From Clostridia bacterium (GTDB lineage: Bacteria > Bacillota > Clostridia > Oscillospirales > Acutalibacteraceae), in contig JAQXZA010000110.1 in NCBI GenBank assembly GCA_029226955.1, positions 1 through 42,606 on the forward strand: DNA of 42,606 nucleotides, read 5' to 3'. The position numbers and the translations under genes were made by a program. Shown here one piece after another: positions 4,461 to 39,900 of this stretch. The notes under the pieces are model-generated. The model had not been told where the DNA came from, ran no database searches, and saw only the letters and a list, made by a program, of their open reading frames with translations. The stretch's first letter is position 1. Each line of letters starts with the position of its first letter.

Positions 4461-4507
4461 AGCCGTATCCTCCAAAATGAATAATTAGTTTAATTGCTTA
4501 CAATATT

Positions 4508-4541
4508 ATTATACATTTTTCAATCTTCGAGAGAGTAGAGA
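4508..4541 (-). promoter_or_regulatory. Promoter element B, twin of 1495-1528
   Basis: On the minus strand a perfect -10 box TATAAT (4508-4513), preceded by GAAAAATG and by TCTC-N5-TCTC-N2-AGAT. No -35 consensus is present at the expected distance. Spacing and order are the same as in element A, without gaps over 34 bases. A small hairpin (CCCC 4573-4576 with GGGG 4589-4592) lies further upstream. Confidence 0.55.
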
Positions 4542-4605
4542 TTACTGGCCTTTTGACTTTGTGTGATATATTTCCCCGCTTATATAAATGGGGGTTTCTC
4601 GCTCA

Positions 4606-7998: not shown

Positions 7999-8814
7999 TT
8001 ACTTTACCGTTGCCGGAAAATATATGTTACAAAGTATTACTCCCGCAAAAATTACAACAGAAAAAATAAGTGCAAACAAATCCAGCTTTGTATAGTGAAG
8101 TACTCTCATTCTTGTTCGTCCGTTTCCTCCGTTGTAACAGCGGCACTCCATAGCCATTGCAAGATCGTTTGCACGTCTGAATGACGACACGAAAAGCGGA
8201 ATAAGAATAGGAATAAGTGCTTTTATACGCTGAAAAATATTTCCGCTTTCCATATCCGCTCCCCTTGCTTTCTGAGCGTTCATTATCTTGTCGGTTTCTT
8301 CAAGAAGTGTGGGAATAAAACGCATTGCAATAGTCATCATCATTGCTATTTCGTGTGTTTTTATGTGAAGATATGAAAGCGGTTTCATCAATCTTTCAAG
8401 AGCGTCCGTAAGGTCAGTCGGTGATGTTGTAAATGTAAGAACTGAACTTATCATTACAAGAGTTGCAATTCTTATTGTGATAAAAATTGCATTGTTAATT
8501 CCACCCTCGGTTATTTTCAGAAATCCCCATTCAAACAAAACCTGTCCCGAACCGTAAAACAAATTGAGTATTCCCGTAAACACTACAACAAAAAGTATAA
8601 CTTTCATACTTTTGAGATAGAGTTTAAAGCTGATTTTTGTCGATAGAATAATAAAAAGTGACGAAAGTGCGATAAGCAAAAGGGAAATATAATTCTGACA
8701 TACAAAAATGAAAATTATATATGCAAGCAAAAGAACAATTTTTGAACGGGCATCAAGTCGGTGAATGAATGATTTTCCCGGCATAAACTGTCCGAGTGTT
8801 ATATCTCTTACCAT
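7999..8814 (-). CDS. ecfT: ECF transporter transmembrane component EcfT
   Basis: The membrane scaffold of a group II energy-coupling factor transporter, linking the two ATPases to exchangeable vitamin-specific S components. It has 271 residues with about five to six hydrophobic helices. The coupling helix carries the Ala-Arg-Gly motif in AQKARGADMESG, and the second motif region is AMAMECRCYNGG. The opening MPGKSFIHRLDARSK is typical. The ribosome site AAAGGAGG is strong. It lies directly behind the two ATPase genes. No S component is encoded next to it, as expected for a shared group II module. Confidence 0.95.
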   Translation of the reverse strand: MVRDITLGQFMPGKSFIHRLDARSKIVLLLAYIIFIFVCQNYISLLLIALSSLFIILSTKISFKLYLKSMKVILFVVVFTGILNLFYGSGQVLFEWGFLKITEGGINNAIFITIRIATLVMISSVLTFTTSPTDLTDALERLMKPLSYLHIKTHEIAMMMTIAMRFIPTLLEETDKIMNAQKARGADMESGNIFQRIKALIPILIPLFVSSFRRANDLAMAMECRCYNGGNGRTRMRVLHYTKLDLFALIFSVVIFAGVILCNIYFPATVK

Positions 8815-8827
8815 TTTTCCCCTCCTT

Positions 8828-9682
8828 TTAATTTGAACCGAGATATTTTACTATCTCATTAAAACCCTGTTCAACGGTAAGAACCGTTGAATCTACATTT
8901 ATTCCATTCTGACGCAAAAGCATCATTATTTTTGTTATCTGCGGAACACGAAGTCCCATTTTTTCAAGTTCACTGCCCTTTGAAAAAACGTTTTCGGTAG
9001 TGTCAAGCATAACTTTGTGTCCGTGGTTCATAACGAGTATTCTGTCGGCTATTCTTGCAATATCCTCCATACTGTGAGATACAAGAAGAATTGTGTTTTT
9101 TCTTATGTTGTGGTATTCCTGTATCTGTGAAAGAAGAACATCACGTCCGAGCGGGTCAAGACCAGCCGTTGGTTCATCAAGAATAAGAACATCAGGGTCC
9201 ATTGCGATAACTCCGGCAATGGCGGCACGGCGTTTTTCGCCGCCTGAAAGTTCAAACGGTGATTTCTGTAAAAGTTCCTCTTTCAAACCAACAAATTCGG
9301 CTGATGTATGAACACGCTCGTCTATTTCTTCATCTGAAAGTCCCATATTTTTTGGACCAAAAGAAATATCCTTATATACGGTTTCTTCAAAAAGCTGATA
9401 TTCGGGATATTGAAAGACCATACCGACTTTAAAACGTACATTACGGATTTTTTTTGGATTTTCCCATATATCCTTACCGTCAAGGTAAATTTTTCCCTCG
9501 GTTGGCTTTAAAAGTCCGTTTAACAGCTGTACAAGTGTGGATTTTCCCGAACCTGTATGACCGATAATTCCGACAAATTCACCGTGTTCAATCTCAATAT
9601 TGACATCTGACAGGGCGACTTTTTCAAAAGATGTTTCTGCACCATATACAAATTTCAGATTTTCGGTTTTTATTACCGACAA
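8828..9682 (-). CDS. ecfA2: ECF transporter ATPase EcfA2
   Basis: ABC ATPase of the shared ECF module, which pairs with EcfA1. Walker A is GHTGSGKST, the Q-loop region is VGMVFQYPEYQLFEETV, the signature is LSGGEKRRAAIAG, and Walker B is DVLILDEPTAGLD; the switch histidine is in LLVSHSMEDIA. The open frame extends upstream to 9739, inside the previous gene. The TTG at 9682 has GGGGAG eight bases upstream and starts the protein at SVIKTENLKFVYG, the usual EcfA2 N-terminus. This gives 284 residues and a 5-base gap after the ecfA1 stop. Confidence 0.93.
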   Translation of the reverse strand: MSVIKTENLKFVYGAETSFEKVALSDVNIEIEHGEFVGIIGHTGSGKSTLVQLLNGLLKPTEGKIYLDGKDIWENPKKIRNVRFKVGMVFQYPEYQLFEETVYKDISFGPKNMGLSDEEIDERVHTSAEFVGLKEELLQKSPFELSGGEKRRAAIAGVIAMDPDVLILDEPTAGLDPLGRDVLLSQIQEYHNIRKNTILLVSHSMEDIARIADRILVMNHGHKVMLDTTENVFSKGSELEKMGLRVPQITKIMMLLRQNGINVDSTVLTVEQGFNEIVKYLGSN

Positions 9683-9687
9683 AACAA

Positions 9688-10548
9688 TCACTCCCCGACA
9701 GAATTTGTTTTCATTATTTTTAAGAGTGCCTGTACACATTCTTCTTCGTTAAGGACGCAATCAGGCACTTCAAATCCGCAACCTTTCAGCTTATATATAA
9801 GTTCGGTTGCCTGTGGAACGTCAAGACGGTGCTTTTTTAAAAGTTCAACCTGAGAAAAAACTTCTCTCGGTGTTCCCTCAGTCAGCACTTTGCCCGAATC
9901 CATCATAATAACTCTGTCAGCCATAACCGCCTCTTCCATATAATGAGTGATAAGAATAATTGTTATGCCGTATTCTTTGTTCAGCTTTGTAATGGTAGAA
10001 ATAACTTCTTCTCGACCCTGTGGGTCAAGCATAGCGGTAGGTTCATCAAGCACGATACATTCAGGTTCCATAGCGATAATTCCGGCAATGGCAACACGCT
10101 GTTTTTGTCCGCCGGATAATTTATCGGGCGAATGTCTGCGGTAATCATACATATCAACGGCTTTAAGTGAATTGTCAACACGCTGTCTTATTTCAGCAGG
10201 CGGTATTCCTAAATTTTCACAGCCGAAAGCGACATCTTCTTCGACAATTCCGGCAACAATCTGATTATCGGGATTTTGAAGTACAAGACCGACTTTTTTT
10301 CTTATATCAAAAATATGCTCATCATCTTTTGTATTCATACCGTCAACTATTACATTTCCAGTTGTGGGAAGATAGATTGAATTAAAATGCTTTGCAAGTG
10401 TGGATTTGCCTGAACCGTTATGACCTACAATAGCGACAAATTCACCCTTGCTTATATTCATACTGATACCGTTGAGTGCGAATTTGCTGTTTTCTTCGTC
10501 TGTATCATATTGAAAATATACATCGTTTACCTGTATAAAATTATTCAT
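9688..10548 (-). CDS. ecfA1: ECF transporter ATPase EcfA1
   Basis: First ATPase of the shared ECF module. Walker A is GHNGSGKST, the Q-loop [15 protein letters not shown], the signature [13 protein letters not shown], Walker [15 protein letters not shown], and the switch histidine [10 protein letters not shown]. The ATG at 10548 has GGAGC six bases upstream; the TTG three bases earlier is less likely. It opens the ecfA1-ecfA2-ecfT-truA-DUF5711 group, 29 bases behind the methyltransferase gene. Confidence 0.94.
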
Positions 10549-10577
10549 CAAAAAGCTCCGATTTCATAAAAAATTCT

Positions 10578-26060: not shown

Positions 26061-26102
26061 AAAAAATTCAGTCAGATATGAATGTATTATATCATATCTG
26101 AC
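26061..26102 (-). terminator. Intrinsic terminator of the cobalamin-uptake operon
   Basis: A 10-bp inverted repeat GTCAGATATG (26071-26080) / CATATCTGAC (26093-26102), followed on the minus strand by TGAA and a run of eight T's. It lies 31 bases behind the stop of the fused ECF gene. Confidence 0.9.
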
Positions 26103-26133
26103 CGTATATTAAAACAGGTATTTTTTATTTGAT

Positions 26134-28815
26134 TTAAACTATAAGTCCGTACTTTGTTTTTATGCGTTCAAGTTTTTGAAGTACAGGTTCTGCACCTATA
26201 TAGAGAAATACTGCCGTTGACAAGCCGTGTATAATATCCATTGGAAGTCCCGACAGATAAAATGCAGCAAGCGTTGATGAATTTATTTCGGTATGCGATA
26301 TTATGAGTGAGGCAGGATTCATTATTCCGCCGTATATAACCGTTGCGGAAATAAAGCCGAATAATGCAAAAGATATTCTGTTTTTCGGAATAAGTCCTTT
26401 ACGGTAGATAATTCCCGACAAAAAACCGATAATGCCCATTGCGAACATTTGCCACGGTGTCCACGCACCCTGTCCGAAAAACATATTTGAAACAAGCATT
26501 GTAACTGCCCCGACTAAAAATCCTGACTCGCCGCCGAGTGCCGCTCCCGAAAGTATCACAAGTGCCGTAACCGGCTTGAACTGCGGCAGCATATAAAATA
26601 CCGCTCTGCCCGAAATGCACAAGGCACAAAGTGACGCTATAAGAACAAGTTCCCGTGCCTGTATTCTGCGTTTTTCAAACACAAGAAAAAACGGCAGCAT
26701 ACATTCAAGCATTACAAGCAGTGATATAAAAAGATATTTTTGGTCATTGAAATAATATATGCCTATGAATATTGTAAGCGGAATGGCTGCAAATATCATA
26801 ACTATGGCTGAAATTGTTCTTTTGGTGAGTTTATGATTTTTGCTGTTTTCTGGATTTATGCTGTGCGTTTTGTGTTTTATTCCGAGAGAAAAAACTATCA
26901 TCATCAAAGAAAGAAAAACCATAGCATACGAAATAATTTTATTTTCGGAAAAATACGGAATTTCAAAAACATCAAGGCTTGCACCTGTCGAAAAAACAAA
27001 AAGTATAAACGAAATAAGAACACTTATTTTTCGCCACAGGGGTAATTTTTCTGAGTTTTTTTCTGAATTTTCAGTAATGTCTGTATCGGTTGTTCTGAGA
27101 TTTTCATACAGTTTTTTTATATTGTCATCAAAATTGTTTTTGTCGCTATTTTCAATATTTTTATTGAGTGCATAAAGAACATCATTTACTGTAACGGCAT
27201 TCGGAATTATACTGCGTGACATTCGGTTTGCTGATGTTGTATAAAATCTGTTGTCCGAGAAAAATGCACGGGGTGTATTTTCTGAAACAATACTGCCGTT
27301 AAAAAACATTGCACATCTGTCGGTGTATTCAGCACAAAATTCTATATCGTGACTGACCATTATTACGGATAAACCTTGTGAAACAAGCGTATGGATAATT
27401 TTTGCAAATTTTTGTTTGAATGATGTATCAAGACCTTTTGTGGCTTCGTCAAGCAAGAGTATTTTCGGATTTGTAAGCAAAACTTTTGCAAGTGCCGCCC
27501 TCTGCTGTTCACCGCCCGACAAATCAAACGGGTGTCGGTTTTTAAGATGTTCAAGTTCACATAAGGAAATAACGCTTTGTACTTTTTGATTTATGATTTC
27601 TTTGTTTATATGCGTTTCAGAAAAAATATCATACAAATCTTCTTCAACCGTATTTTTTACAAAAAGCGTTGCCGGATTTTGAGGCAATATCGCAAGAGTA
27701 TTATGCACATTCTTTTCTTTTGAAATATCCTTGCCGTTTATTAAAACCTTTCCCCTGTACGCTTTATTTACTCCGCCGATAACGGAAAACATTGTTGTTT
27801 TGCCTGTTCCGTTTCCGCCGAGTATTGCAAAAAATTCTCCGCTGTATGCTTTGAAATTTACACCTTTGAGGACATCAGGAAGATTTTTTTCATATCTGAA
27901 CCATATATTTTCAAGTTCAAGTACAGGCGGTTCGTTATGAGAAAGCGGTGTTTCAGTTTCAAGCGGCTTAATTGTCTTGTTTTGGGTGTATTCTGAAAGC
28001 CATTTTCTGCCTTCACTGACTGTAAGTGGTGCTTTGTTGTTTGTTTTATCGTCAACATAGGAATAAATACGCAAAGGTGACGGAAATGCCGAAAACATAG
28101 GATTTTTTTCTGAATAAAGTATTTTGCCTGTATTTTCGGGGGTATCGTCTGAAATGATTTTTCCGTCTGACATTACGATAACTCTGTCGCTAAGAGGAAA
28201 AACCTCGTCAAGATGATGTTCACTTATTATTATTGTTGTACCGAGTTCAAGATTTATTTTTCTTATTGCCGAAATAAATTCGTCTGATGCTATCGGGTCA
28301 AGCTGTGATGTAGGTTCATCAAGAATAAGAACCGTCGGCTGCATTACCATAACAGACGCAAGATTGAGTATCTGTTTTTGTCCGCCCGAAAGTTCGTTTA
28401 TGTTTTTATCAAACCACTGTTCTATGCCGAAAAATGCCACCATTTCAGCAACACGTTTTCTTATTGTATTGCTGTCGAGTGAAAGACTTTCAAGACCGAA
28501 TACAAGCTCGTGCCATACTTTATCTGTAACAGACTGATTGTCGGGTGACTGTGTTACAAAACCGATTTTGCGTGACTGCGTTTCAAAGTCAGTTTTTTCA
28601 AGAGGTGAGTTTTCAAAGATAATATTTCCGCTGCGTTTTCCATAAGGCTGCAAACAGGTTTTTAATTGACGCAAAAGCGTACTTTTGCCGCAACCTGAAT
28701 ATCCACATATTGTTATGAACTCTCCGTCATTAACAGAAAATGAAATATTGTCAAGGGCTTTTTCGTCTGTTTCGGGGTAGGAAAATGTCAAATTTTCGAT
28801 TTTATATATTTCCAC
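26134..28815 (-). CDS. Fused ECF transporter: two ATPase domains plus S component
   Basis: An 893-residue polypeptide uniting three ECF subunits. ATPase 1 (about 1-240): GYSGCGKST, LSGGQKQILNLAS, VLILDEPTSQLD. ATPase 2 (about 295-535): GGNGTGKTT, LSGGEQQRAALAK, ILLLDEATKGLD. The rest (about 600-893) is membrane protein: roughly four N-terminal helices, then an S-component core with GRAVFYMLPQFKPVTALV, GGESGFLVGAVTMLVSN and FFGQGAWTPWQMFAMGIIG. That last block is one I associate with predicted cobalamin S components of the CbrT type; substrate assignment is inference, supported by the upstream cobalamin riboswitch. GTG start with AAGGAGG seven to eight bases upstream; it overlaps ecfT by 28 bases. 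A dedicated group I-like system, distinct from the module at 7999-10548. Confidence 0.88.
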   Translation of the reverse strand: MEIYKIENLTFSYPETDEKALDNISFSVNDGEFITICGYSGCGKSTLLRQLKTCLQPYGKRSGNIIFENSPLEKTDFETQSRKIGFVTQSPDNQSVTDKVWHELVFGLESLSLDSNTIRKRVAEMVAFFGIEQWFDKNINELSGGQKQILNLASVMVMQPTVLILDEPTSQLDPIASDEFISAIRKINLELGTTIIISEHHLDEVFPLSDRVIVMSDGKIISDDTPENTGKILYSEKNPMFSAFPSPLRIYSYVDDKTNNKAPLTVSEGRKWLSEYTQNKTIKPLETETPLSHNEPPVLELENIWFRYEKNLPDVLKGVNFKAYSGEFFAILGGNGTGKTTMFSVIGGVNKAYRGKVLINGKDISKEKNVHNTLAILPQNPATLFVKNTVEEDLYDIFSETHINKEIINQKVQSVISLCELEHLKNRHPFDLSGGEQQRAALAKVLLTNPKILLLDEATKGLDTSFKQKFAKIIHTLVSQGLSVIMVSHDIEFCAEYTDRCAMFFNGSIVSENTPRAFFSDNRFYTTSANRMSRSIIPNAVTVNDVLYALNKNIENSDKNNFDDNIKKLYENLRTTDTDITENSEKNSEKLPLWRKISVLISFILFVFSTGASLDVFEIPYFSENKIISYAMVFLSLMMIVFSLGIKHKTHSINPENSKNHKLTKRTISAIVMIFAAIPLTIFIGIYYFNDQKYLFISLLVMLECMLPFFLVFEKRRIQARELVLIASLCALCISGRAVFYMLPQFKPVTALVILSGAALGGESGFLVGAVTMLVSNMFFGQGAWTPWQMFAMGIIGFLSGIIYRKGLIPKNRISFALFGFISATVIYGGIMNPASLIISHTEINSSTLAAFYLSGLPMDIIHGLSTAVFLYIGAEPVLQKLERIKTKYGLIV

Positions 28816-29690
28816 TTTCTGTCCTCCTTTATATCAACTGCAACAGGTGTTAAACACATAATAAAATAAACCGTATAAAGTGAAAACTCATATATTCCGA
28901 CTGAAATATTGCTTAATGACGGAAAATAATCATAATCTAAATATCCGCTGACTGCACCGACAAAAACATATATACCGCAAAAAATCAAAAACAAAATGAA
29001 TACTCCGTCACGCTTTTCAAAACGGTAAAGTGCAAATGATGTTCTGTGCGGAAGTCCATAGCCACGATTTTTCATTGAATCGGCTGTTTCAACGGAATTT
29101 TCCATTGACCACAATATCATTACGGATATAATTCTGACGGCATTTTTTATTCGTCTGAAAAGTGAACCGTCGGTTATGTCACGTCCTATACAATGCTGTG
29201 AGGCACGAACCTGTTTCAGTTGTGCTTTGAATTTCGGAATAAAACGCAATATCATTGATATTAACAGGCTTAATGTCGGTACAATTCTGCCGAAAAGAAA
29301 AATTATTTTGTCAGATGTCATTATTTTATTAACGCACGAAAACCACAATATTACCGATGACATAAGAAAAGCCGCCGCAATTCCGTAGATTACGGATTCA
29401 AGTGTAAACGGGTTGCCGTCGGATAAATACGCAAGAATTGTTACACCACCGTGACTGAAAAGCGGATTTATTACTGCTATAAGCAAAAACATAGGAATAA
29501 CTACTTTTAAAAGCATTTTAAGAGTTTTTGCTCTGCCGAGATAAAGTGCATAGGAAAAAGCGGCAAAAAATGATATTGCAAGAAATACAGGATTCATTAT
29601 AAACATTGAAAACAACAATACCAATGTAAAATATGTGAATATTACTGTCGGGTGATATTCCGAAAAAGTATCTTTTTGCAAATTTTCCAC
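28788..29690 (-). CDS. Dedicated EcfT-type transmembrane component
   Basis: A 300-residue membrane protein of the CbiQ/EcfT family, with about six hydrophobic helices (VIFTYFTLVLLFSMFIMNP, FFAAFSYALYLGRAKTL, VVIPMFLLIAVINPLFSHGG). The cytoplasmic coupling region carries QVRASQHCIGRD and the second Arg motif ADSMKNRGYG, close to the RGYG of cobalt/cobalamin-type T components. GTG start; it lies six bases behind the DUF4430 gene and overlaps the fused ATPase/S gene. It should join the two fused ATPases to the S domain. Confidence 0.88.
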   Translation of the reverse strand: MENLQKDTFSEYHPTVIFTYFTLVLLFSMFIMNPVFLAISFFAAFSYALYLGRAKTLKMLLKVVIPMFLLIAVINPLFSHGGVTILAYLSDGNPFTLESVIYGIAAAFLMSSVILWFSCVNKIMTSDKIIFLFGRIVPTLSLLISMILRFIPKFKAQLKQVRASQHCIGRDITDGSLFRRIKNAVRIISVMILWSMENSVETADSMKNRGYGLPHRTSFALYRFEKRDGVFILFLIFCGIYVFVGAVSGYLDYDYFPSLSNISVGIYEFSLYTVYFIMCLTPVAVDIKEDRKWKYIKSKI

Positions 29691-29696
29691 TCTTTT

Positions 29697-30650
29697 CTAC
29701 TCTTGAAAATATCCGTCTATGTCTTTTCCCATATTACAGGTATAAAGCCATTGTATGTTGTCGCCGTTTTTTACTTTGATTTCGGAACACGAATAGCTGT
29801 TGTATGTTCCGTTTATTCTGTACATCCAACCTGACGCACTGCCACAGTCAAATTCATAAATATTATTTATGCCCTCTATATACATACTGTTATACAATGG
29901 TGTTTTTGAAAATTCAAGATGAATTTTTCTGTCCGTACAGGTATTTTTAAGAACATCAAACACAGTGTCGCCGTTTTTAAATGTTACTGTGGTTTCCTTT
30001 AAAATCCAGCCGTCAGACGAAACAAGGGATTTTTTTGAACTTTTTAATTTATCCATATTATCTAATATTGTCGCACAGGAAATTGAAATTGTACAGGTGT
30101 TTTTTTCTGTCGGCGGTTGTGATGATGTCGGTTTACTGTTTTCTTTAATGACATTTGAGTATTCTGTTTTGCTGTTGGTTGATGATGATTGGTTATCCGA
30201 TATGTTTTCGTTTTTGACTGGCTGTGAATTTTCGTAAGATGTAACGGAAGTATTTTTACTGTTTTTTGATGGATTTTCCGAAACTGTCGGAGTTGAAACT
30301 TCATTTTCTGTTTCAGAATTATATAATGAATGTTCTTCTGAAACAGTGCTTTGATTATCAATAGTAACAGAAGATGATGTTATATTTTTGCTTGTTTCTG
30401 AACTATTATCTGAAACATAACTTTTTTCTTTTGGCTTGCTTTCGGACGAAAAATCAGAAATTTCTTTCGATATGTCGGTGTTTTCGGTTTTTGAAATATC
30501 TGAAACAGATGAAATTGCTGAGGAAGTGTTGGTTTCAACCTGTACCGGACTATCGGGATTTCCGCCCATAAAAAATGCCACTGCCAGTACAGCAACCACC
30601 GCAAGAATTATAAATATTTTTGTTTTGTGCTTTTTAAAAAATTCAAGCAT
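29697..30650 (-). CDS. Membrane-anchored DUF4430 (transcobalamin C-terminal-like) protein
   Basis: A 317-residue extracytoplasmic protein. A basic N-terminus and one hydrophobic helix (IFIILAVVAVLAVAFFMGG) anchor it; there is no lipobox cysteine. Residues about 35-185 form a Ser/Thr/Asn/Glu-rich low-complexity linker, the kind that spans the cell wall. Residues about 190-317 carry a DUF4430-like domain: VTFKNGDTVFDVLKNTC, a stretch ending FDCGSASGWMYRINGTYN, then IKVKNGDNIQWLYTCNMGKD. DUF4430 (PF14478) is related to the C-terminal beta domain of transcobalamin and intrinsic factor. The likely role is to hand cobalamin to the ECF transporter encoded next. The ATG at 30650 has AAAGG upstream; the TTG at 30659 is less likely. 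Confidence 0.82.
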   Translation of the reverse strand: MLEFFKKHKTKIFIILAVVAVLAVAFFMGGNPDSPVQVETNTSSAISSVSDISKTENTDISKEISDFSSESKPKEKSYVSDNSSETSKNITSSSVTIDNQSTVSEEHSLYNSETENEVSTPTVSENPSKNSKNTSVTSYENSQPVKNENISDNQSSSTNSKTEYSNVIKENSKPTSSQPPTEKNTCTISISCATILDNMDKLKSSKKSLVSSDGWILKETTVTFKNGDTVFDVLKNTCTDRKIHLEFSKTPLYNSMYIEGINNIYEFDCGSASGWMYRINGTYNSYSCSEIKVKNGDNIQWLYTCNMGKDIDGYFQE

Positions 30651-30673
30651 ATAAAACAACCTTTCAGCTTAAT

Positions 30674-30709
30674 AAAGGCTGTCCTGAAACTTTTTACAGA
30701 ACAGCCTTT
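30674..30709. terminator. Intercistronic hairpin with T-run on the plus strand
   Basis: Inverted repeat AAAGGCTGT (30674-30682) / ACAGCCTTT (30701-30709). The T-run (GTTTTTT, 30710-30716) is on the plus strand, away from the genes. On the minus strand it is followed only by ATTAAG. Within the operon it may act as a weak attenuator or an RNA-stabilising or processing element between the two DUF4430 genes. Confidence 0.55.
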
Positions 30710-30729
30710 GTTTTTTGGTTTATAATTTA

Positions 30730-32880
30730 TTATCTGTCAGTTGATTTTTTCTTTGTTATTATTACGGCAATTACTGCAAAAAGCATAACAATAACTATCG
30801 GAAAAACAGCAAATGTGTCACCTGTATTTACTGTTGAATTATCCTTATTTTCAGTTTGTGAATTTTGCTGAGATGTAGGTGTGCTTTCCTCTGAATTAAC
30901 AGAATTTTCGGTGCTGTTCTGTACATCTGAACTTTCATCAGAAACACTGTTTTCGCTGTTGTCTGAACTTTCTGTCGGAACAGGTGAAATTTCTACATCA
31001 CTCATATCATAAAGTGATGTTTTGCCCTGTGAATAGCGATAATATGAAACAAGTGCATAATATGCCTGATTTGTTGATACTCCGTTTTCTGTGCCGTTCT
31101 GTAAATGGCTGAATGTGCCGTCATTGTAGAAAAGTTTAAGTCCGTCAAGTGCTGTGTTGCCGTTTTTTATAAAGCGTGTATCTGACAAAATATCAATGCC
31201 AAGTGCCGTAAGTGCCGTTATTACCTGAGCGTTACTTTCGCAATCCTGTGAACCGTAAGATACAAATGAACCGTTGTCCTGTTGATTTGATGAAAGGAAA
31301 GTCAGTGCCTTATCAACGCTTGATTTGACATTATTATCGGAATTATAGTACGGTGCAAGAGCCTGTAATACCATAGCTGTCATATCTGAATCCGAAACAT
31401 CACCATAAAAAGTCCAACCACCGTCTGAAAGTTGTGATGAAATTATTGAGTCAATAAGTTTTTCACGGGTAGTCTGATTTGCACTGTCAGAAGATACAGG
31501 AATTTCATAATTTTTTGTGTCAAGCGATACGAGTGCATAAACTAAACCGTTTATTCCCTGACCGCTTAAATATTCATAGTCTGAATACGGTTCAAGAAGA
31601 TTGTATCCGCCAATATTTGTAACATCACAACCAAGTGCGGTAAGTGTAATTATAAAACGTGAATTATCGGTTGATTTTGTATTGCTGAGTTTTGAACTGC
31701 CTACGGTTTTTACATAGTCTTCCGCACTTTTTATATAGGTGTTGCGTATTTCGTCAGTAATTTGTTCACCTCTTACAAGTGACAAAATTATCCATTCATT
31801 TCCTGCGACTGCAATATCTGAAACATCAGAATCAAGAAATTTTTGTGTTGTTTTTGTGAACATCTCGTTAAAGTCAACCTGTGTTTTTTCTATGGCTGAA
31901 TATGACTTTTCCGCTGAAAGCAAGACATCATAATTTGATACAAGTGACTGTTGTAAAGCAGTAAGATTATTGTATGAATTTCTTGCTGTTTCAATGGAAT
32001 TTTTGCTTTTTACTGTAACTGTTCCGATTGAATTTATGAGTTCTTCGGTTTCGGTTGCCTTTTCCCTGTCTTTATCCGTTGGCTGTGGTGCGACCGAATT
32101 AACAGTGATTTTATATACAGTTCCCGTCACACCGTCAGCGGTATATTGCCAGGAACTGTTGCCTACACCGATATAAATTACATCTTCATCTGACAATGTA
32201 ATTTCACTGCTGCGTTTTATATCAGTGCCGTTAGTTTCGGGAGTGTAGCTGTTTTTATAGATTTTTGTGCGGTATGCTTTGTTTTCGGCTGTGGGTGTTA
32301 TTTTCACGCTTTCCGTATCTGACGGAAGTTTAAGAGTATATTCTGTGGTATCGGTGTTAAATTCTGGTTCAAGAGTTCCGCCGCTTAAAGATATGGATTT
32401 AAGCTTTGTACTTGTATCTGACCACGAATAGCCTATATCGGCACCCCAGTCACAACTGTATTGAAAACAGATTTCGTCACCGTTTTCAAGTTTTCCAGAA
32501 GAAACGGTATATGCTGAAAGTCCCTCATCTGTTATCCAGTCATCAAGCGTTGCCATCCAACCGCTCATATATCCGTTGTCATTTGCCGACAATCCGCCTA
32601 TTTCGGTTACATATCCGTCCTCAGCACCTGTCTGAGTGTAACCGCTGTCGGCAACTGCCTGTATAAATGCCGATAAAACTGACGAATCACTGTCAATATC
32701 AACCCACTCGTCAATAAGTGTTCCGTCCCACTTTGCACCGTCAGAAACGGAATATGTGTTGTTCTGTACGATAATTCTTACCTGTCCGTCATTGTCCTTT
32801 GCTGATACGCACAGCGGTATCATTGATATTATCAACGACAGCACCGTTACAACCACAAGTGTTTTTTTCGCTTTTTTCAA
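30730..32880 (-). CDS. Surface protein: DUF4430 + cadherin-like + alpha/alpha-barrel (intrinsic-factor-like parts)
   Basis: A 716-residue exported protein. Signal peptide 1-27 (LVVVTVLSLIISMIPLCVSA, cut before KDN). About 30-155: DUF4430-like domain (GYMSGWMATLDDWITDEGL, KLENGDEICFQYSCDWG). About 158-258: cadherin-like beta-sandwich (LKSISLSGGTLEPEFNTDTT, EYTLKLPSD). About 265-330: helical linker. About 340-620: repeats of the prenyltransferase/squalene-cyclase alpha/alpha-barrel type (SSQLSDGGWTFYGDVSDSDM, SSNQQDNGSFVSYG, ESNAQVITALTALGID). Then a Ser/Asn-rich stretch, VNTGDT, a membrane helix and KKK, resembling a noncanonical sortase or membrane anchor. Human B12 binders combine an alpha/alpha barrel with a DUF4430-related domain, so cobalamin capture is inferred. 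TTG at 32880 has GGAGG eight bases upstream; the frame opens at 32919 without a site. Confidence 0.85.
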   Translation of the reverse strand: MKKAKKTLVVVTVLSLIISMIPLCVSAKDNDGQVRIIVQNNTYSVSDGAKWDGTLIDEWVDIDSDSSVLSAFIQAVADSGYTQTGAEDGYVTEIGGLSANDNGYMSGWMATLDDWITDEGLSAYTVSSGKLENGDEICFQYSCDWGADIGYSWSDTSTKLKSISLSGGTLEPEFNTDTTEYTLKLPSDTESVKITPTAENKAYRTKIYKNSYTPETNGTDIKRSSEITLSDEDVIYIGVGNSSWQYTADGVTGTVYKITVNSVAPQPTDKDREKATETEELINSIGTVTVKSKNSIETARNSYNNLTALQQSLVSNYDVLLSAEKSYSAIEKTQVDFNEMFTKTTQKFLDSDVSDIAVAGNEWIILSLVRGEQITDEIRNTYIKSAEDYVKTVGSSKLSNTKSTDNSRFIITLTALGCDVTNIGGYNLLEPYSDYEYLSGQGINGLVYALVSLDTKNYEIPVSSDSANQTTREKLIDSIISSQLSDGGWTFYGDVSDSDMTAMVLQALAPYYNSDNNVKSSVDKALTFLSSNQQDNGSFVSYGSQDCESNAQVITALTALGIDILSDTRFIKNGNTALDGLKLFYNDGTFSHLQNGTENGVSTNQAYYALVSYYRYSQGKTSLYDMSDVEISPVPTESSDNSENSVSDESSDVQNSTENSVNSEESTPTSQQNSQTENKDNSTVNTGDTFAVFPIVIVMLFAVIAVIITKKKSTDR

Positions 32881-32922
32881 TATATATTCCTCCAATGATT
32901 TATTTTTACAGAAAAGCAAGCG

Positions 32923-33198
32923 TCAGTTTTCGGACTTATCGGAAACATTATTGCGTTCAGCGGCTTTAATGGCTTTTTTGCGGCGTTCACGCTTTAAGCG
33001 GCTTTTTTCTTTGCTGCTGATTTTTGTCGGCTCTTTAAGACCGGCAAGTTCAACAGCACGTGGCCACGCTCCTAATTTTTGCTTGATAAAGCATACGGTT
33101 TTGCTGTCAAAGTCACTGCGTTTAGGCAAACGGTTAAGTTCTTCTGCTTTATCTTTAAGAAGATTGATTGCGGTTTGCCTTTTTTCGTCTTTGTCCAT
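32923..33198 (-). CDS. Small basic protein with homing-endonuclease-associated (HNH) repeat
   Basis: A 91-residue protein. Residues 5-55 match the HNH-associated repeat pattern (PF18780-like): LNRLPKRSDFDSKTV, then IKQKLGAWPRAVELAGLKEP, with the typical G-x-W-x-x-A-x-x-x-A-G-L ending. The C-terminus is strongly basic (KEKSRLKRERRKKAIKAA), which suggests nucleic-acid binding. There is no nuclease domain. It is the first gene behind the cobalamin riboswitch, 42 bases upstream of the surface receptor. Its role in B12 uptake is unknown; it could be a regulator or a chance passenger. A weak ribosome site (GGACGGTGA) precedes the ATG. Confidence 0.7.
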   Translation of the reverse strand: MDKDEKRQTAINLLKDKAEELNRLPKRSDFDSKTVCFIKQKLGAWPRAVELAGLKEPTKISSKEKSRLKRERRKKAIKAAERNNVSDKSEN

Positions 33199-33221
33199 AC
33201 AAATTCACCGTCCGTAAACAT

Positions 33222-33257
33222 AAAAAATGCTTTCTCTGTAAATTAACAAAGAAAGCA
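33222..33257 (-). terminator. Terminator of the cobalamin riboswitch expression platform
   Basis: Minus strand: stem TGCTTTCT (33250-33257) with AGAAAGCA (33228-33235), followed by six T's (33222-33227), 24 bases before the ATG at 33198. It lies downstream of the aptamer and before the first gene, as expected for transcription attenuation when cobalamin is bound. I did not resolve the antiterminator pairing. Confidence 0.8.
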
Positions 33258-33376
33258 CAACTGATTTTTACAACAATAACAAACCCATACCGAAAAATCT
33301 GAAATTGAAGTACAGTTTTTCGATACAGATAAAATCTGCTGAAAATCGGCTGCACTTCTTCTTCGTCCAAGATGCG

Positions 33377-33511
33377 ATACCTCATTATGCGGAAGTATTC
33401 TGACTTATGGCGAACCTCACCAAACACAGTAATGACGGTTGTTCCGGATTCTGACCGGATTCCCTGTTACCTACTCGGAAAAACCTTTCGAGCCGCATAA
33501 TGTTTCGGTAT
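33377..33511 (-). ncRNA. Cobalamin (AdoCbl) riboswitch aptamer
   Basis: Read on the minus strand the element has a 10-bp P1 closing stem CATTATGCGG / CCGCATAATG (33493-33502 with 33383-33392), extended by ATACC/GGTAT. Inside it are the B12-box features in order: GTAACAGGGAATCCGGT, then GAATCCGGAACAACCGTC, ATTACTGTG and finally AAGTCAGAATACTTCCGC. These agree with the RF00174 consensus (AGGGAA, CCGGU, ACUGU, AGUCAGGAUAC). It lies between a consensus promoter and a terminator, in front of the 33198-26134 operon, so that operon should be shut off by cobalamin. Confidence 0.95.
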
Positions 33512-33525
33512 TGAATTTTAAGACA

Positions 33526-33554
33526 ACTATAACAGATTTTATTTTTTCTGTCAA
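33526..33554 (-). promoter_or_regulatory. Consensus promoter of the cobalamin riboswitch operon
   Basis: Minus strand: TTGACA (33549-33554), 17-base spacer, TATAGT (33526-33531). Start of transcription is expected near 33519, just before the aptamer. It lies 20 bases behind the hemL stop, so the uptake operon has its own transcription unit. Confidence 0.85.
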
Positions 33555-33574: not shown

Positions 33575-34840
33575 TTATTTATCACAGAAATTTTTTATGA
33601 TGTCAGCGGTGTATTTTATGTCTTCGTCACTGTGTGCCGCTGAAACAAACATTGCCTCAAACTGCGACGGTGCAACAAAAATTCCGTTATCCTGCATATA
33701 CTGAAAATATTGTGCGTATTTTTCGGTATCTGATGTTTTCGCACTGTCATAATCTGTGACTGTAATATCAGTAAAAAACGGTGTCATAATCGAACCGACA
33801 CGGTTTACATTAAAACCTGTACTTTTCATAGCGTTTTCTATTATAGCTGATTTTGTTTCAAGCTGAGTGTACAAGTCTTTTTCGCTTTCAATAACTTTCA
33901 GCGTTGCAATACCGGCGGCAACGGCTGTGGGATTGCCTGAAAGTGTTCCAGCCTGATAAACTGAACCGAGCGGTGCTACACATTCCATAATTTCTTTTTT
34001 GCCGCCATATACTGCAAGCGGCATACCTCCGCCCACAATTTTTCCAAGTGTGGTCATATCGGGTGTTATTCCGTAATATTGCTGTGCACCGCCTATACTG
34101 AGCCTGAATCCTGTTATAACTTCGTCAAAAATAAGTACGGTATTATGCTTTGTTGTAATTTCACGCAAGAATTTCAGAAAATCTTTTTCGGGCGGAACAA
34201 CACCCATATTTGCCGCACAAGGTTCAACAATCAGACAGGCAATTTCGTCGGAGTATTCATCAAACAGATTTTGAACAGAAATTTTGTCATTATATTTTGC
34301 AAGAAGTGTATTATCAGTGTAACCCTTTGGAACACCGGCACTGTCGGGAATTGAATTTGTGAGCAAGCCTGAACCCGATTTAACAAGTAAGCCGTCTGAA
34401 TGTCCGTGATAACAACCCTCAAACTTAATGATTTTATCACGGTGAGTATAACCCCTTGCCGCACGGATTGCACTCATAACAGCCTCTGTTCCTGAATTTA
34501 CAAGTCTTAGCATTTCCATTGACGGAATATGCTTTTTTATAAGTTCGGCAAGTTCAATTTCACCCTCGTGGCACGCACCAAAGGTCAAACCCTTTTCACA
34601 ACTTTTTATAACAGCCTCTATAACTTCGGGGCGGCTGTGTCCGAGTATATTTGGCCCCCACGAACAGATATAATCAATATATTCATTGCCGTCAACGTCA
34701 TAAATTTTATCTTTTGACGCTCTGTCAATAAACAGCGGTGTTCTGCCGACAGCATTACAGGCACGGACAGGACTGTTTACTCCTCCCGGCATAAATGTTT
34801 TTGCTTTTTCGTAAAGTTCTTTTGATTTATTGGTTTTCAC
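33575..34840 (-). CDS. hemL: Glutamate-1-semialdehyde 2,1-aminomutase
   Basis: PLP enzyme that converts glutamate-1-semialdehyde to 5-aminolevulinate in the C5 pathway. It has 421 residues from a GTG start at 34840. This start overlaps the hemB stop as GTGA and has GGAGGAAGAC just upstream; the frame's earlier GTG at 34858 lies inside hemB without a ribosome site. Motifs: [55 protein letters not shown] and the PLP lysine region [17 protein letters not shown]. Last gene of the tetrapyrrole operon. Confidence 0.97.
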
Positions 34841-35805
34841 TCGTCTTCCTCCAACCACTTTGCAGCGTCAAGAGCGTGATATGTTATTATGACATCAGCA
34901 CCGGCTCTTTTTATTGCAATAAGATTTTCCATAACAATTTTCTTTTCGTCAATCCAGTTAAGCTGTGCCGCCGCTTTAACCATTGAATATTCGCCGCTGA
35001 CATTATATGCTACAATCGGCAAATCAAAACGGTCACGGGCGGCTCTGATTATGTCAAGATAAGCAAGTGCCGGCTTTACCATAACCATATCTGCTCCCTC
35101 TGAAATGTCGTCCTCAATTTCCCTGAGTGCTTCAAGTCCGTTTGCACTGTCCATCTGATATGTTTTTCTGTCGCCAAAACTTGGTGCTGACTCTGCCGCA
35201 TCACGAAAAGGCGAATAATAAGCTGACGCAAATTTTGCACTGTATGAAAGTACAGGCGTATCAATAAAGCCGTTTTCATCAAGTGAAGAACGGATTACTT
35301 TCACTCTGCCGTCCATCATATCTGACGGTGCAATAATATCCGCACCCGATTTTGCAAGGCTTACAGCCATTTTTGAAAGAAGCGGAAGTGTTTCGTCATT
35401 GAGTATTTTTTCACCGCAAACAACACCGCAGTGACCGTGAGATGTATATTCGCATAAACATACATCAGCAATTACAAGAAGTTCGGGATAGTTTTTTTTG
35501 ATGTATTTTATTGCCCTCTGAGTAATGCCGTTATCATCATAAGCTGATGTTGCAAGCTCGTCTTTGTGAGTAGGAATACCGAAAATCAAAATTCCCGGTA
35601 TATTACTTTTTTCAACTTCATCAAGTATTTCGTCAAGTTTGTCAATGGAATACTGATAAACTCCCGGCATTGAAGCAACGGGATTTTTTATGTTTTCACC
35701 CTCAATGACAAACAACGGATAAATCAAGTCGCTTTTGTTAAGATGTGTTTCACGCACAAGTCTGCGTATCTGTTTATTCGCTCTCAGTCGTCTGAATCTG
35801 TTCAT
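34837..35805 (-). CDS. hemB: Porphobilinogen synthase (delta-aminolevulinate dehydratase)
   Basis: Condenses two 5-aminolevulinates to porphobilinogen. It has 322 residues. The zinc-type cysteine motif [14 protein letters not shown] is present. The active-site lysines are in [18 protein letters not shown] and in [28 protein letters not shown] precedes the ATG. The gene overlaps the 3' end of cobA/hemD by 32 bases and hemL by four, so the operon is translationally coupled. Confidence 0.97.
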
Positions 35806-37282
35806 TTTGTACCTCCTGTAAAATTGTATCGGTTATTCCCTGAACGTTCTGTGTTTCAGAAATAAGATAATCACTTATTTCATAGCTTTTAAGTGTGTTT
35901 GCCGTAGCGTTGCCGATACATATAATTTTTGTTTTTGAAGATATTTTATAATTGTTTTCAAAAAATGCTTTTACTCCTGACGAACTTGCAAAAGTGATAA
36001 AATCCGTATTTATTTCGGTGGTTTCATTTGCTTTACTGTCGCCGACTACATCATAAATTTTTATGTCGTTGTAATTTATTTTTGCATTATCAAGAATTTG
36101 TGTCAGTTCGGGTGAACCTTGTTCCGCACGAAGAATAAGTATATTTTCATTGTCTGACGATTTTTTTACAAGTTCATTGCCGAGTGCCTGTGAAGTATAA
36201 ATATCGGGAACAATGTCGGCAATAATACCGTGTTTTTTAAGAACATCTGCTGTACCACTGCCGATTACCGCAAACTTTACATTACAAAGTTTTCTTATAT
36301 CAATATTAAGTCTTATAAGCCTGTTAAAAAATATTTCTGCACCGTTAATACTCGTAAGCACTATAACACTGTATTTCTGAATGTTCATAAGTGCATTATC
36401 AAAAATTTTATTTTCCGTATATTCAATAACATTAAGATAATTTGCCTTCTGAACTTCTGCACCGAGTTTTTCAAGCTGTAATGAGAGTTTTTCAACAAAA
36501 TTCTTTGTGCCTGTAACGGTGACAGAAGTATCTTTCAGCGGAAGTTTAACGGTATCTGAAAAATCAAATGTGGCAACATCACCGACAACTATTACGGCTG
36601 GCGGTTGTAGTTTTGATTTTTCAACTTTATCAGCTATGTTATTTAAGTTTCCTCTTATAATTTTCTGATTTTTGCTTGCACCGTCTGAAATAACGGCAAC
36701 AGGAGTATTTTCATTTTTGTCGTATTTTATAAGCATTTCGGAAATATGTTTTAAATTACGAAGTCCCATAAGAAAAACAAGAGTGCCGCTTAGTTCGGCG
36801 TAAATTTTCATATCTTTCGGAAGTAAATTTTCGGAAGTATGACCTGTTATTATATGAAAACTGCGGCTTAATTCACGGTGAGTGACAGGTATTCCGGCAA
36901 GCTCGGGAACGGCAACAGATGACGAAATTCCGGGAACAACGCTGTATTCAATGTTATTTTCCTGTAATGCCTGAATTTCTTCTCCGCCTCTGCCGAACAC
37001 AAACGGATCGCCGCCCTTTAAGCGTACAACTGTTTTGCCCTCATTGGCTTTTTGAACAAGAATTTTATTTATATTTTCCTGTTTTTCGCTGTGGTGTCCT
37101 GCACGTTTGCCAACACATATTTTTTCTGTATTCGGTAATACAAAATCAATAAGTCTGTTATCAATAAGACTGTCATAAACAACGGTATCACATTGTTTTA
37201 AGAGTTTCAGTCCTCTTAAAGTTATAAGGTCATAATCTCCGCAACCGGCACCGACAAGATAGACTTTTCCTGTATTGCTCAT
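35774..37282 (-). CDS. cobA-hemD: Fused uroporphyrinogen-III methyltransferase / uroporphyrinogen-III synthase
   Basis: A two-domain, 502-residue enzyme. Residues 1-240 are the SUMT/CobA methylase: [55 protein letters not shown] and the late [15 protein letters not shown]. Residues about 250-495 are Hem[21 protein letters not shown], then [15 protein letters not shown] and [15 protein letters not shown]. The fused protein cyclises hydroxymethylbilane and then methylates the product at C2 and C7 to precorrin-2. This fusion is common in Clostridia and directs flux toward siroheme and cobalamin rather than heme. It overlaps hemC by four bases (ATGA). Confidence 0.96.
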
Positions 37283-38142
37283 AGCTTTGAAATCAACTCC
37301 TTTGCAAGTTCAAAACGGTTTTCAACGTCCGATATTCCTGATACTTTTCTGACTGAATCTTTTGAAACTGTCAGACTGATTTTACCGTTTTCAATATATG
37401 AATATGCAGCTGTCGGCATAGTACAATCGGCATTAAGCAAACGCAAAACACTTTGTTCTGTTTCAAACGATAAAAATGTTTCCTTATCGTTTATTGCGTT
37501 GATAAACGGTGTGACAAAATCATTTTTCCGGCTTTCTATTGCGATAATTCCCTGACAGGCTGACGGCAAAAATTCGTTATAATCAAAGGCTTTTATGTTA
37601 TATTCAGGATTTTCAAAAAGTCCGAGCCTTTTAAGCCCCGCCGCCGCAAGAATAACAGCGTCATAATCTCCATTTTGAAGTTTTTTAAGTCGTGTATCAA
37701 TGTTTCCACGAATATCCCTGAATTGCACCTCAGAATAAAGGCTGTGCATATTTTGTATTCTGCGTACACTGCCTGTTCCGACAATGAAATCAGATGTGTT
37801 TGTAATTTCTCTGCCCGAAAGCATTACAAGAACATCACGATAATCTCCACGTTTAAGAACACCTGAAATTTCAAGATTTTTTTCAGGATAAACAGGTAAA
37901 TCCTTTGCACTGTGAACAGCTATGTCAATTTTTCCGCTTATCAATGCACGTTCTATTTCTGAAACAAAAACACCTTTTCCGCCTATCTTTGCAAGCGGTT
38001 TATCGAGAATTTTATCCCCTGTTGTGACAATGGGGACAATCTCTGTCTGAATTTCGGGAAAGTTGTTTTTTAATGCCTGTATAACCATATTTGTCTGTGC
38101 CATTGCCAGTTTACTTTTTCTTGTTCCGATTTTAATTTTCAT
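37279..38142 (-). CDS. hemC: Hydroxymethylbilane synthase (porphobilinogen deaminase)
   Basis: Polymerises four porphobilinogens. It has 287 residues from the ATG at 38142 (MKIKIGTRKSKLAMAQTN); the GTG three bases earlier is an alternative. Family blocks VFVSEIERALISGKIDIAVH, SAKDLP and FRDIRGNIDTRLKKL are present. The dipyrromethane-cofactor cysteine is in LLNADCTMPTAAYS. The start overlaps the sirC 3' end by 11 bases, and the stop overlaps cobA/hemD. Confidence 0.96.
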   Translation of the reverse strand: MKIKIGTRKSKLAMAQTNMVIQALKNNFPEIQTEIVPIVTTGDKILDKPLAKIGGKGVFVSEIERALISGKIDIAVHSAKDLPVYPEKNLEISGVLKRGDYRDVLVMLSGREITNTSDFIVGTGSVRRIQNMHSLYSEVQFRDIRGNIDTRLKKLQNGDYDAVILAAAGLKRLGLFENPEYNIKAFDYNEFLPSACQGIIAIESRKNDFVTPFINAINDKETFLSFETEQSVLRLLNADCTMPTAAYSYIENGKISLTVSKDSVRKVSGISDVENRFELAKELISKL

Positions 38143-38755
38143 CACTGTTGCTTATTTCCTCTATCATATTATAAATCTGTTTGTCGTCAGGCAATTTATC
38201 AGAAGTAATACACAAGTTCAAAATTTTTTTGTTTGCCTGTTTTCGCAAAAATTCCGAGTTTATTTTTGCTTTTATAATCGGTCTGTATTTACTTAAAATA
38301 TCTATTATTCCGGGATTTATACCGTCAAGTAAATCTTCAATTTGTTGTCTGAGATATTTTGCATAAAGTGGACTTTTTCCTGATGTAGTTATGCCAACTG
38401 TTACATCATCTTTTTTGATGATTGACGGAAAAATAAAACCGCATTTTTCTTTATCGTCAACAGTATTGACAAGTATATTTTCAGCTTTGCAAAGTTCAAA
38501 AATATGTGCATTGAGTTTTTCGTCATCGGTTGCCGATATTACCATAAATGCGTTTTTGATGTCTTTATCAATAAATTTTCTGCGTTCGGTTTTAACTCCG
38601 ATTTTTTCAATTTCATCACAAATGTTCGGTGCAATAACAGTTATTTCAGGATTGAATAAGATTATTTTTTTCAGCTTTTGAAGTGCTATTTTTCCGCCGC
38701 CGACTATAACGCATTTTTTGTTTTCTATATCAATATAAAACGGAAAATATCCCAT
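38132..38755 (-). CDS. sirC: Precorrin-2 dehydrogenase (siroheme synthase N-terminal type)
   Basis: NAD-dependent oxidation of precorrin-2 to sirohydrochlorin, with possible ferrochelatase activity as in CysG-N/Met8p. It has 207 residues. The Rossmann motif is KCVIVGGGKIALQKLKKI; further blocks are VISATDDEKLNAHIF, NILVNTVDDKEKCGFIFPS and VGITTSGKSPLYAKYLRQQI. The frame opens at 38776 inside hemA; the ATG at 38755 (MGYFPFYIDI) has AGGTG at suitable distance and starts two bases behind the hemA stop. Confidence 0.92.
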   Translation of the reverse strand: MGYFPFYIDIENKKCVIVGGGKIALQKLKKIILFNPEITVIAPNICDEIEKIGVKTERRKFIDKDIKNAFMVISATDDEKLNAHIFELCKAENILVNTVDDKEKCGFIFPSIIKKDDVTVGITTSGKSPLYAKYLRQQIEDLLDGINPGIIDILSKYRPIIKAKINSEFLRKQANKKILNLCITSDKLPDDKQIYNMIEEISNSDEN

Positions 38756-38757
38756 AA

Positions 38758-39900
38758 TCACACCTGCCCTGCACAATTTTTCAATACATCAATAACTGCC
38801 GAAAACTGCTCTGCACTCAATGACGATTTGAGTTTATACAGAACAGTTTCAGCAGAATTATCTGATATATATGATTTTAAATTTTCAAGACACGGCAAAA
38901 AATCGTGAAATATCAGGTCTTTTTTCAGTACATCAATTTCTTCTGTAATTATGTTTCTTGCAGATGTGACGCTTTCAGCTTTTTCGAGATTATTTTTTCT
39001 TGCAAGCTGTTCAAAATAGTCTATATCAATAAGCCTCACACCGCCAATATTTGCAATGCTTTTGTCAATATCTGATGGAACGGCAAGGTCAATAAAAAGA
39101 CGGTTTTTATTATGTTTTACATTTTTCTTTATATCATACGCAGTAACCGTATAGTGAGGACTGCTTGTTGCACTGATAATGCAGTCGGCACTGTCCATAT
39201 ATTCATAACGTCTGTCATAATCAATTATACTGATATTTGAAGTATTTTCGGTTAAATTCAGGTCAGAACCGTGATGTCTTGATGTTGCAATAACATTAAG
39301 ATTTTTGTGTGACACAAGATTTTTAAGCACAGTTGAGCCTATTTTTCCTGTTGCACCAATAACAAGTACGGTCTTGTCTTTTCCGAGTTTTGCCGCCTCA
39401 TTTGCGGCAAGTGTTGCGGTTGATACAGAAGTTTTTGAAAGCATTGTCTGTGTTTTTATTTTTTTTGCACAAGCTATTGCCGACTGAAAAATCATATTTA
39501 TTTCATAACTTGTGGTGCCGCATTGTTTTGCAAAATAATAAGCGTTTTTTGTCTGTCCGAGAATTTCGTCTTCACCTATCACCATTGAGTCTATTCCGCC
39601 CGCAACTTTGAATAAATGTGATATTGCACTGTCACCGTCAAAGTTCATTATATACGGAATAAGTTCTTCTGTATTTGTTTTTCCGTATTTTGCAAGCGTA
39701 TTTTCGGCAATTAAATATGAGTTGTTATCACCGCAAAAATACAGTTCGGTTCTGTTACAGGTGCAAAGTAATACACATTGTGAAATATTATTGTTGTCTG
39801 TAAGTACAGATAAAATTTCACGCTGTATATCAGGTTGAAAAGCAAAATTTTTTCGGAAATTCAAATCGGCTTTTTTATAGTTTATACTTATACAAAACAT
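38758..39900 (-). CDS. hemA: Glutamyl-tRNA reductase
   Basis: NADPH-dependent reduction of Glu-tRNA to glutamate-1-semialdehyde, entry to the C5 tetrapyrrole pathway. It has 380 residues, slightly shorter than the usual 410-430. The catalytic cysteine is in VLLCTCNRTELYFCG. Other blocks: HLFKVAGGIDSMVIGEDEIL, then QTKNAYYFAKQCGTT, the NADP Rossmann VLVIGATGKIGSTVLKNL and RLFIDLAVPSDID. First gene of the hemA-sirC-hemC-cobA/hemD-hemB-hemL operon. A weak GCGAGAG ribosome site precedes the ATG; the 108-base leader shows no riboswitch. Confidence 0.95.
   Translation of the reverse strand: MFCISINYKKADLNFRKNFAFQPDIQREILSVLTDNNNISQCVLLCTCNRTELYFCGDNNSYLIAENTLAKYGKTNTEELIPYIMNFDGDSAISHLFKVAGGIDSMVIGEDEILGQTKNAYYFAKQCGTTSYEINMIFQSAIACAKKIKTQTMLSKTSVSTATLAANEAAKLGKDKTVLVIGATGKIGSTVLKNLVSHKNLNVIATSRHHGSDLNLTENTSNISIIDYDRRYEYMDSADCIISATSSPHYTVTAYDIKKNVKHNKNRLFIDLAVPSDIDKSIANIGGVRLIDIDYFEQLARKNNLEKAESVTSARNIITEEIDVLKKDLIFHDFLPCLENLKSYISDNSAETVLYKLKSSLSAEQFSAVIDVLKNCAGQV

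Follow-up and report, generated by a model that had tools for sequence, protein, structure and literature searches.

A Predicted Cobalamin-Repressed Uptake Operon with Intrinsic-Factor-like Parts in a Clostridia Bacterium

Introduction

In 2007 Burroughs et al. (PMC1796856) proposed that vitamin B12 (cobalamin) or its precursors are scavenged by bacterial proteins in which a transcobalamin-like SLBB domain is combined with an alpha/alpha toroid, either of the two coming first. A second SLBB protein and CbiO/CbiQ genes are often found alongside, and animals were proposed to have gained their B12 carriers from such bacteria. On the transport side, 6FNP is the structure of ECF-CbrT, an energy-coupling factor (ECF) transporter reported to carry cobalamin and cobinamide (PMC5997447), while for many human gut genomes the B12 transporters are said to be still awaiting identification (PMC6593275). 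Here we describe five minus-strand genes that follow a cobalamin riboswitch in a 42,606-nucleotide stretch of DNA (the window) from a Clostridia bacterium of the family Acutalibacteraceae (assembly GCA_029226955.1, contig JAQXZA010000110.1, positions 1 to 42,606).

The locus is well supported as a B12 uptake operon, and we consider it likely that this operon is repressed by cobalamin, that it captures the vitamin at the cell surface with intrinsic-factor-like parts and that it imports it through a CbrT-type ECF transporter. Much of this picture had been put forward in a preliminary description made from the sequence, and it is now backed by a riboswitch covariance model, a profile of the DUF4430 domains, the CbrT-like S component and the superposition of a predicted relative on intrinsic factor. 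The core idea is not new, having been published in 2007, and the window exemplifies it; new here are the riboswitch link, the relation of the S component to CbrT, the proposed two-chain clamp, a proposed minimal unit of DUF4430 and S component, and an HNH_repeat protein.

Results

On the minus strand the order of elements is promoter, RF00174 aptamer, hairpin with T-run, five open reading frames and a second hairpin, confirming in the window the promoter, cobalamin riboswitch and terminator that had been read ahead of the five genes. The aptamer (33374..33512, minus strand) scores 38.7 bits against the RF00174 covariance model (gathering threshold 31.5), the match spans model positions 1-189 and the riboswitch assignment thereby holds; a genome scan showed it to be the sole RF00174 match in the whole genome. 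Upstream of it lies a sigma-70-type promoter (33526..33554, minus strand), TTGACA-17-TATAGT with an extended -10 element (TG before the second hexamer) and 11 of 12 consensus matches. It is one of two sites with this score among the 35 promoter-like sites of the window, a class that is not enriched (29.6 expected from shuffles). The leader ends in an intrinsic terminator (33227..33258, minus strand; 13-pair stem and T-run, fold z -4.24), and low cellular B12 would allow the leader to read through this terminator so that the operon is expressed. At the other end the operon is closed, as had been noted, by one terminator, a 3' hairpin followed by a T-run (26069..26104, minus strand; 13 pairs, loop of 10, z -3.84), which the pattern scan for terminators did not list, though its folding is good; terminator-like sites in the window number 4, against 7.0 expected.

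The preliminary description had also assigned EcfT and a fused ECF ATPase/S protein, and both assignments are borne out by matches above cut-off: the CbiQ-like transmembrane (TM) component EcfT (28788..29690, minus strand) matches PF02361 at 30.3 bits (cut-off 25), and the fused EcfA-EcfA'-S protein (26134..28815, minus strand) matches TIGR04520 in two stretches (366 vs 315 bits) and PF07155 (40.8 vs 26.7 bits). The operon thus holds a complete ECF set of two ATPases, EcfT and S component. When the S domain (26134..26745, minus strand) was searched alone against the PDB with E values up to 1, a single chain was matched, 6fnp_A of ECF-CbrT (2.9e-13), and a profile of 39 S domains matched the same chain at 1.7e-21 as compared to 5.5e-5 for RibU.

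A profile of 72 DUF4430 stretches searched against solved structures gave transcobalamin-2 as best match (1.4e-4), and the ten best matches (to E 0.05) are transcobalamin-1, transcobalamin-2, gastric intrinsic factor and one bacterial single-domain structure; by such profile comparison the DUF4430 domains are homologous to the beta domain of transcobalamin. We take B12 to be the ligand because three independent lines point to it, namely the genome's only cobalamin riboswitch, an S domain that matches CbrT and a DUF4430 profile that matches transcobalamin.

The arrangement is conserved. Matches to the receptor protein encoded by the second gene (E <= 0.001) occur in 87 of 197 genomes of the order, and for closer study we used 61 genomes besides that of the window, in which 71 matches cover the barrel domain of this protein at about 1e-10 or better. 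For 40 of the 71, in 37 genomes, the 8 kb upstream contain an RF00174 match on the same strand, where 0.13 would be expected by chance, and 38 of the 63 riboswitches in the sampled genomes lie upstream of barrel matches. This co-occurrence survey, proposed at the outset, supports the riboswitch link, with a large minority of loci showing no recognisable aptamer. A scan of named genomes yielded 77 loci, which are the closest only (best 80 of at least 535 relatives in at least 594 stretches) and range from Clostridia to Paenibacillus; local profiles detect DUF4430 in 75, EcfT in 60 and the S component in 54 of these, some loci being cut by contig ends. In two sets of ten (20 of the 77) same-strand RF00174 matches lie upstream in six of ten each time, the match in L111, which lies on the opposite strand, not being counted. 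The locus samples overlap at least at L107/L034, and L148 and L149 look near-identical in domain map. One locus, L100, has two back-to-back cobalamin riboswitches (4095-4572), one before a DUF4430-barrel gene and the other before divergent DUF4430/EcfT/ATPase genes.

The receptor (30730..32880, minus strand) is predicted to be exported and membrane-anchored, and consists of a signal peptide, a DUF4430 domain, a Cadherin-like domain, a long helix, an alpha/alpha barrel, a polar linker and a C-terminal TM segment (residues 683-714); its start is probably the TTG at 32880, preceded by GGAGG. The N-terminal DUF4430, an extra copy (32455..32658, minus strand), matches PF14478 with 1.2e-6 and 29.3 bits (cut-off 23.8), and the Cadherin-like domain (32098..32400, minus strand) matches PF12733 with 3e-7 and 31.2 bits (cut-off 24.2). 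For the barrel, an alpha/alpha toroid (31000..31806, minus strand), the scores lie below the Pfam cut-offs, with 23.0 vs 26.5 bits for Prenyltrans (PF00432) and 14.9 vs 26.2 bits for PF13249, and membership of the prenyltransferase/squalene-cyclase families was therefore rejected, though its fold is nearest theirs. The barrel is predicted with a local distance difference test score (pLDDT) of about 94-99, as compared to about 59-78 for the N-terminal DUF4430. A single-sequence search of the PDB with the receptor returned 3 unrelated matches (E 0.16 or worse), and a search of a plasmid collection gave no match.

The next gene (29697..30650, minus strand) encodes a TM-anchored protein with an N-terminal TM segment (residues 7-33), a polar linker of about 155 residues and a DUF4430 domain (29739..29972, minus strand; PF14478 5.3e-18 and 65.7 bits, 7.4e-19 in the genome search), which we propose to be the beta half of a clamp. 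A single-sequence PDB search with this protein found no match; profiles were required. The claim of two gene products with DUF4430-like domains is thus upheld, both being above the PF14478 cut-off (the barrel is not above that of PF00432), and these are the genome's only two DUF4430 matches.

Where, then, would B12 be gripped? The preliminary description placed an intrinsic-factor-like two-domain grip inside the receptor, between its own N-terminal DUF4430 and the barrel, with the second DUF4430 protein as a relay to the transporter. The parts are indeed present, one chain holds both domains, and among 38 two-domain proteins (window included) the DUF4430-barrel order of the window occurs by itself in 11. 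The barrel-DUF4430 order is commoner, however, being found in 24, and the remaining 3 are mixed. Of the barrel-DUF4430 fusions 18 of 24 have two TM-like stretches between the domains, while in L042 and L068 a plain linker of 34-37 residues joins them; the window has the parts of such a fusion in two genes, with a TM segment at the C-terminus of the barrel protein and another at the N-terminus of the next product. From 138 loci, the window's included, we took 99 operons in which the barrel gene has an EcfT gene behind it on its own strand; the counts are not independent, as some of the genomes are related. In 72 a separate DUF4430 gene alone comes after the barrel, in 18 the barrel is fused C-terminally to DUF4430 and no separate gene follows, 1 has both and 8 have neither; in these 8 a DUF4430 gene precedes the barrel. 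Fusion and separate gene are nearly mutually exclusive, most operons retaining one separate DUF4430 after the barrel unless it is fused. A tree built on 78 of 197 collected DUF4430 stretches places the second protein within a fork of 52 rows, comprising 30 separate genes, 21 fusion beta-domains and 1 other; there is no N-terminal copy in this fork, and the receptor's own falls outside it (support 89/81, which is moderate and not decisive).

Because fusions and separate genes nearly exclude each other, and because the second DUF4430 groups with the fusion beta-domains, the intrinsic-factor-like grip probably forms between the receptor barrel and the DUF4430 of the 29697-30650 product, that is, between two chains. 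A grip within the receptor appears unlikely to us, the lower confidence of its predicted N-terminal DUF4430 counting against it as well. The reversal of domain order relative to the human proteins, also claimed earlier, is real in the receptor and concerns this extra copy, not the likely clamp. When its predicted structure is compared with human intrinsic factor, a fused relative, L049, aligns across both domains (347 residues, 3.7 A). For this relative the pair of domains thus has a structural match to a B12-binding protein, and the DUF4430 profile matches such proteins in sequence, while the barrel alone is nearer to terpene cyclases. A clamp mechanism is probable as judged from such comparisons. 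In such a scheme B12 would bind and the clamp close around it, the captured vitamin would be handed to the CbrT-like S component within the EcfA-EcfA'-S chain, a hand-over via the second DUF4430 protein fits, and the chain together with EcfT would carry out the import. The N-terminal DUF4430 and the Cadherin-like domain may likewise have roles of their own.

In order to see what accompanies the riboswitch where the barrel is absent we considered 20 genomes of the order that have no receptor match, 15 of which contain RF00174 (18 matches altogether). Eleven of the 18 riboswitch regions were examined, the other 7 being in four CbiD-carrying genomes, where Pfam found no DUF4430 beside the riboswitches. 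All 11 have a DUF4430 gene downstream on the same strand (local profile, E 5.3e-5 or better), and in 6 the very next gene encodes an S component standing alone (E at most 7.1e-4); one of these S components, compared with the PDB, had CbrT as its sole match (2.9e-8). Looked at from the other side, 10 of 15 DUF4430 matches in the barrel-free genomes have an RF00174 match on their own strand no more than 3.5 kb upstream. From gene content we propose that, where no barrel is encoded, DUF4430 and a solitary S component may make up a minimal unit for B12 uptake. Such loci, in which a cobalamin riboswitch is followed by the genes of a small DUF4430 protein and of a CbrT-like S component standing alone, are L178, L179, L183, L184, L185 and L186, L178 having an HNH_repeat gene before these. 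In L181 (6190-11857) the position of the barrel protein, before DUF4430-EcfT-EcfA-S and behind a cobalamin riboswitch, is occupied by an exported beta-propeller protein of the PQQ type, an arrangement that recalls the strategy of BtuG of Bacteroides, also a beta-propeller (PMC6143338).

Some of the data weigh against the interpretation that we favor. Of the 71 barrel matches 31 have no RF00174 in reach (some loci stop at contig ends), a rescan of 8 such riboswitch-less loci found none, and the fold of the barrel alone is closest to terpene cyclases, more than to intrinsic factor. One could imagine that only DUF4430 and the S component handle B12, and that the barrel protein is a surface adhesin or a binder of glycan, a host B12 carrier or lipid, as the barrel-free minimal loci, the terpene cyclase likeness and the Cadherin-like module of the receptor might suggest. 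This we also judge improbable, since natural fusions of barrel and DUF4430 exist and the predicted fused relative matches intrinsic factor across both domains.

Whether the organism needs B12 from outside bears on the ligand. CbiD was not found in the window's genome, and a MetH-like protein with a B12-binding domain is present (TIGR02082, 361 bits over a 610-residue stretch, under the cut-off of 1010.85), which together fit an organism needing outside B12. Of the 197 genomes of the order, 62 match the barrel strongly, the window's among them, and 4 of these carry CbiD, as compared to 30 of the 135 others (p 0.0075, uncorrected for kinship). The substrate might instead be incomplete corrinoids such as cobinamide, or another tetrapyrrole: CbrT also transports cobinamide (PMC5997447), and the same-strand genes just upstream of the riboswitch (33575-39900) resemble, by eye, a heme/siroheme (precorrin-2) synthesis cluster. 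With a cobalamin riboswitch preceding the operon and CbrT as the best S match, we give this a somewhat smaller chance still than either alternative above. An ordinary cobalt ECF transporter of the CbiMNQO type with surface proteins attached, to which the Pfam label CbiQ for the T component might point, is highly improbable given that the T component reaches 12.1 bits with the CbiQ equivalog model TIGR02454, whose cut-off is 111.8, that no CbiM family is among the matches listed for the five genes (best 25 for the ATPase-S chain) and that the S component is CbrT-like. Elsewhere in the window (7999-10551) lie another EcfT gene and two further EcfA genes, probably the cell's shared ECF module.

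The first gene of the operon (32923..33198, minus strand), whose identity had been missed in the preliminary description, encodes a small basic HNH_repeat (PF18780) protein of 91 residues with net charge +11 and no TM-like stretch. Among 39 riboswitch/next-gene pairs, 16 have an HNH_repeat gene as the first gene that could be recognised behind the riboswitch. Of the 77 named loci 17 contain such a gene, always with a DUF4430 or barrel gene as the next one recognised, and the spacing to it ranges from -31 to +82 bases in 16 of these loci; in a few loci the HNH_repeat gene lies within the operon instead of first. Among 30 genomes searched, 1 of 20 matches lies off the operon. As 19 of these genomes were picked as known operon carriers (Pfam match in 18 of 19 and in 0 of the 11 others), only this off-operon figure is informative. 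Three of the 20 barrel-free genomes have an HNH_repeat gene, next to RF00174 in two. Examples are L034, L037, L062, L097 and L161, often with overlap of the receptor gene start, and L036 and L039 show a tandem order of riboswitch, HNH_repeat gene, second riboswitch and barrel gene. In L034-L070 the RF00174 match is at most 170 nt long in 12 of 16 riboswitches before HNH_repeat vs 3 of 23 others, which may reflect kinship. The only paper that we found naming the family lists it in a table. A role for this protein in the operon may be supposed.

Discussion

Going further, and only as a possibility, many gut Clostridia may possess a two-chain, membrane-tethered intrinsic factor in which cobalamin itself holds the barrel on the surface and the tethered beta domain together before the beta domain loads the CbrT S component, with DUF4430 and S as the minimal unit. 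In this reading a dedicated small HNH_repeat protein would often add nucleic-acid-level control of B12 uptake, its gene running into or directly adjoining that of the receptor and being rare elsewhere in the genomes searched. A literature search with little coverage of subscription papers and preprints found no experimental test of a bacterial receptor of this kind. The operon is a concrete and widespread B12 transport candidate with named parts. A Gram-positive bacterial origin of the animal B12 carriers, as proposed in 2007, can be put to a direct test through binding assays on its natural versions, both split and fused. For DUF4430, which Pfam still lists as of 'unknown function', a specific task is suggested, and attention is drawn to an unstudied operon protein, HNH_repeat.

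With the SLBB clade of 2007 (PMC1796856) the window shares the domains, a second SLBB paralogue, surface export, ECF-type neighbors and predicted B12 scavenging. The word riboswitch is absent from that paper, and the portion consulted contains no S component, fusion/fission argument or HNH_repeat protein. BtuG of Bacteroides (PMC6143338) is likewise a surface capture protein in a B12-riboswitch-regulated uptake locus and acts in a comparable way; it differs in being an unrelated seven-bladed beta-propeller lipoprotein whose partner is the outer-membrane transporter BtuB. ECF-CbrT of Lactobacillus delbrueckii (6FNP, PMC5997447) has a homologous S component, EcfT and two ATPases, whereas in the window the S component is fused to both ATPases and stands in a dedicated operon with surface capture proteins. 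Finally, the combination of alpha/alpha barrel and beta-grasp domain is that of intrinsic factor, transcobalamin and haptocorrin, with about 9-15% identity between the L049 relative and this family; barrel and beta domain follow each other in one chain in the family, as in 24 of the 38 bacterial two-domain proteins, while the window divides them between two membrane-anchored chains and adds an extra DUF4430 and a Cadherin-like domain.

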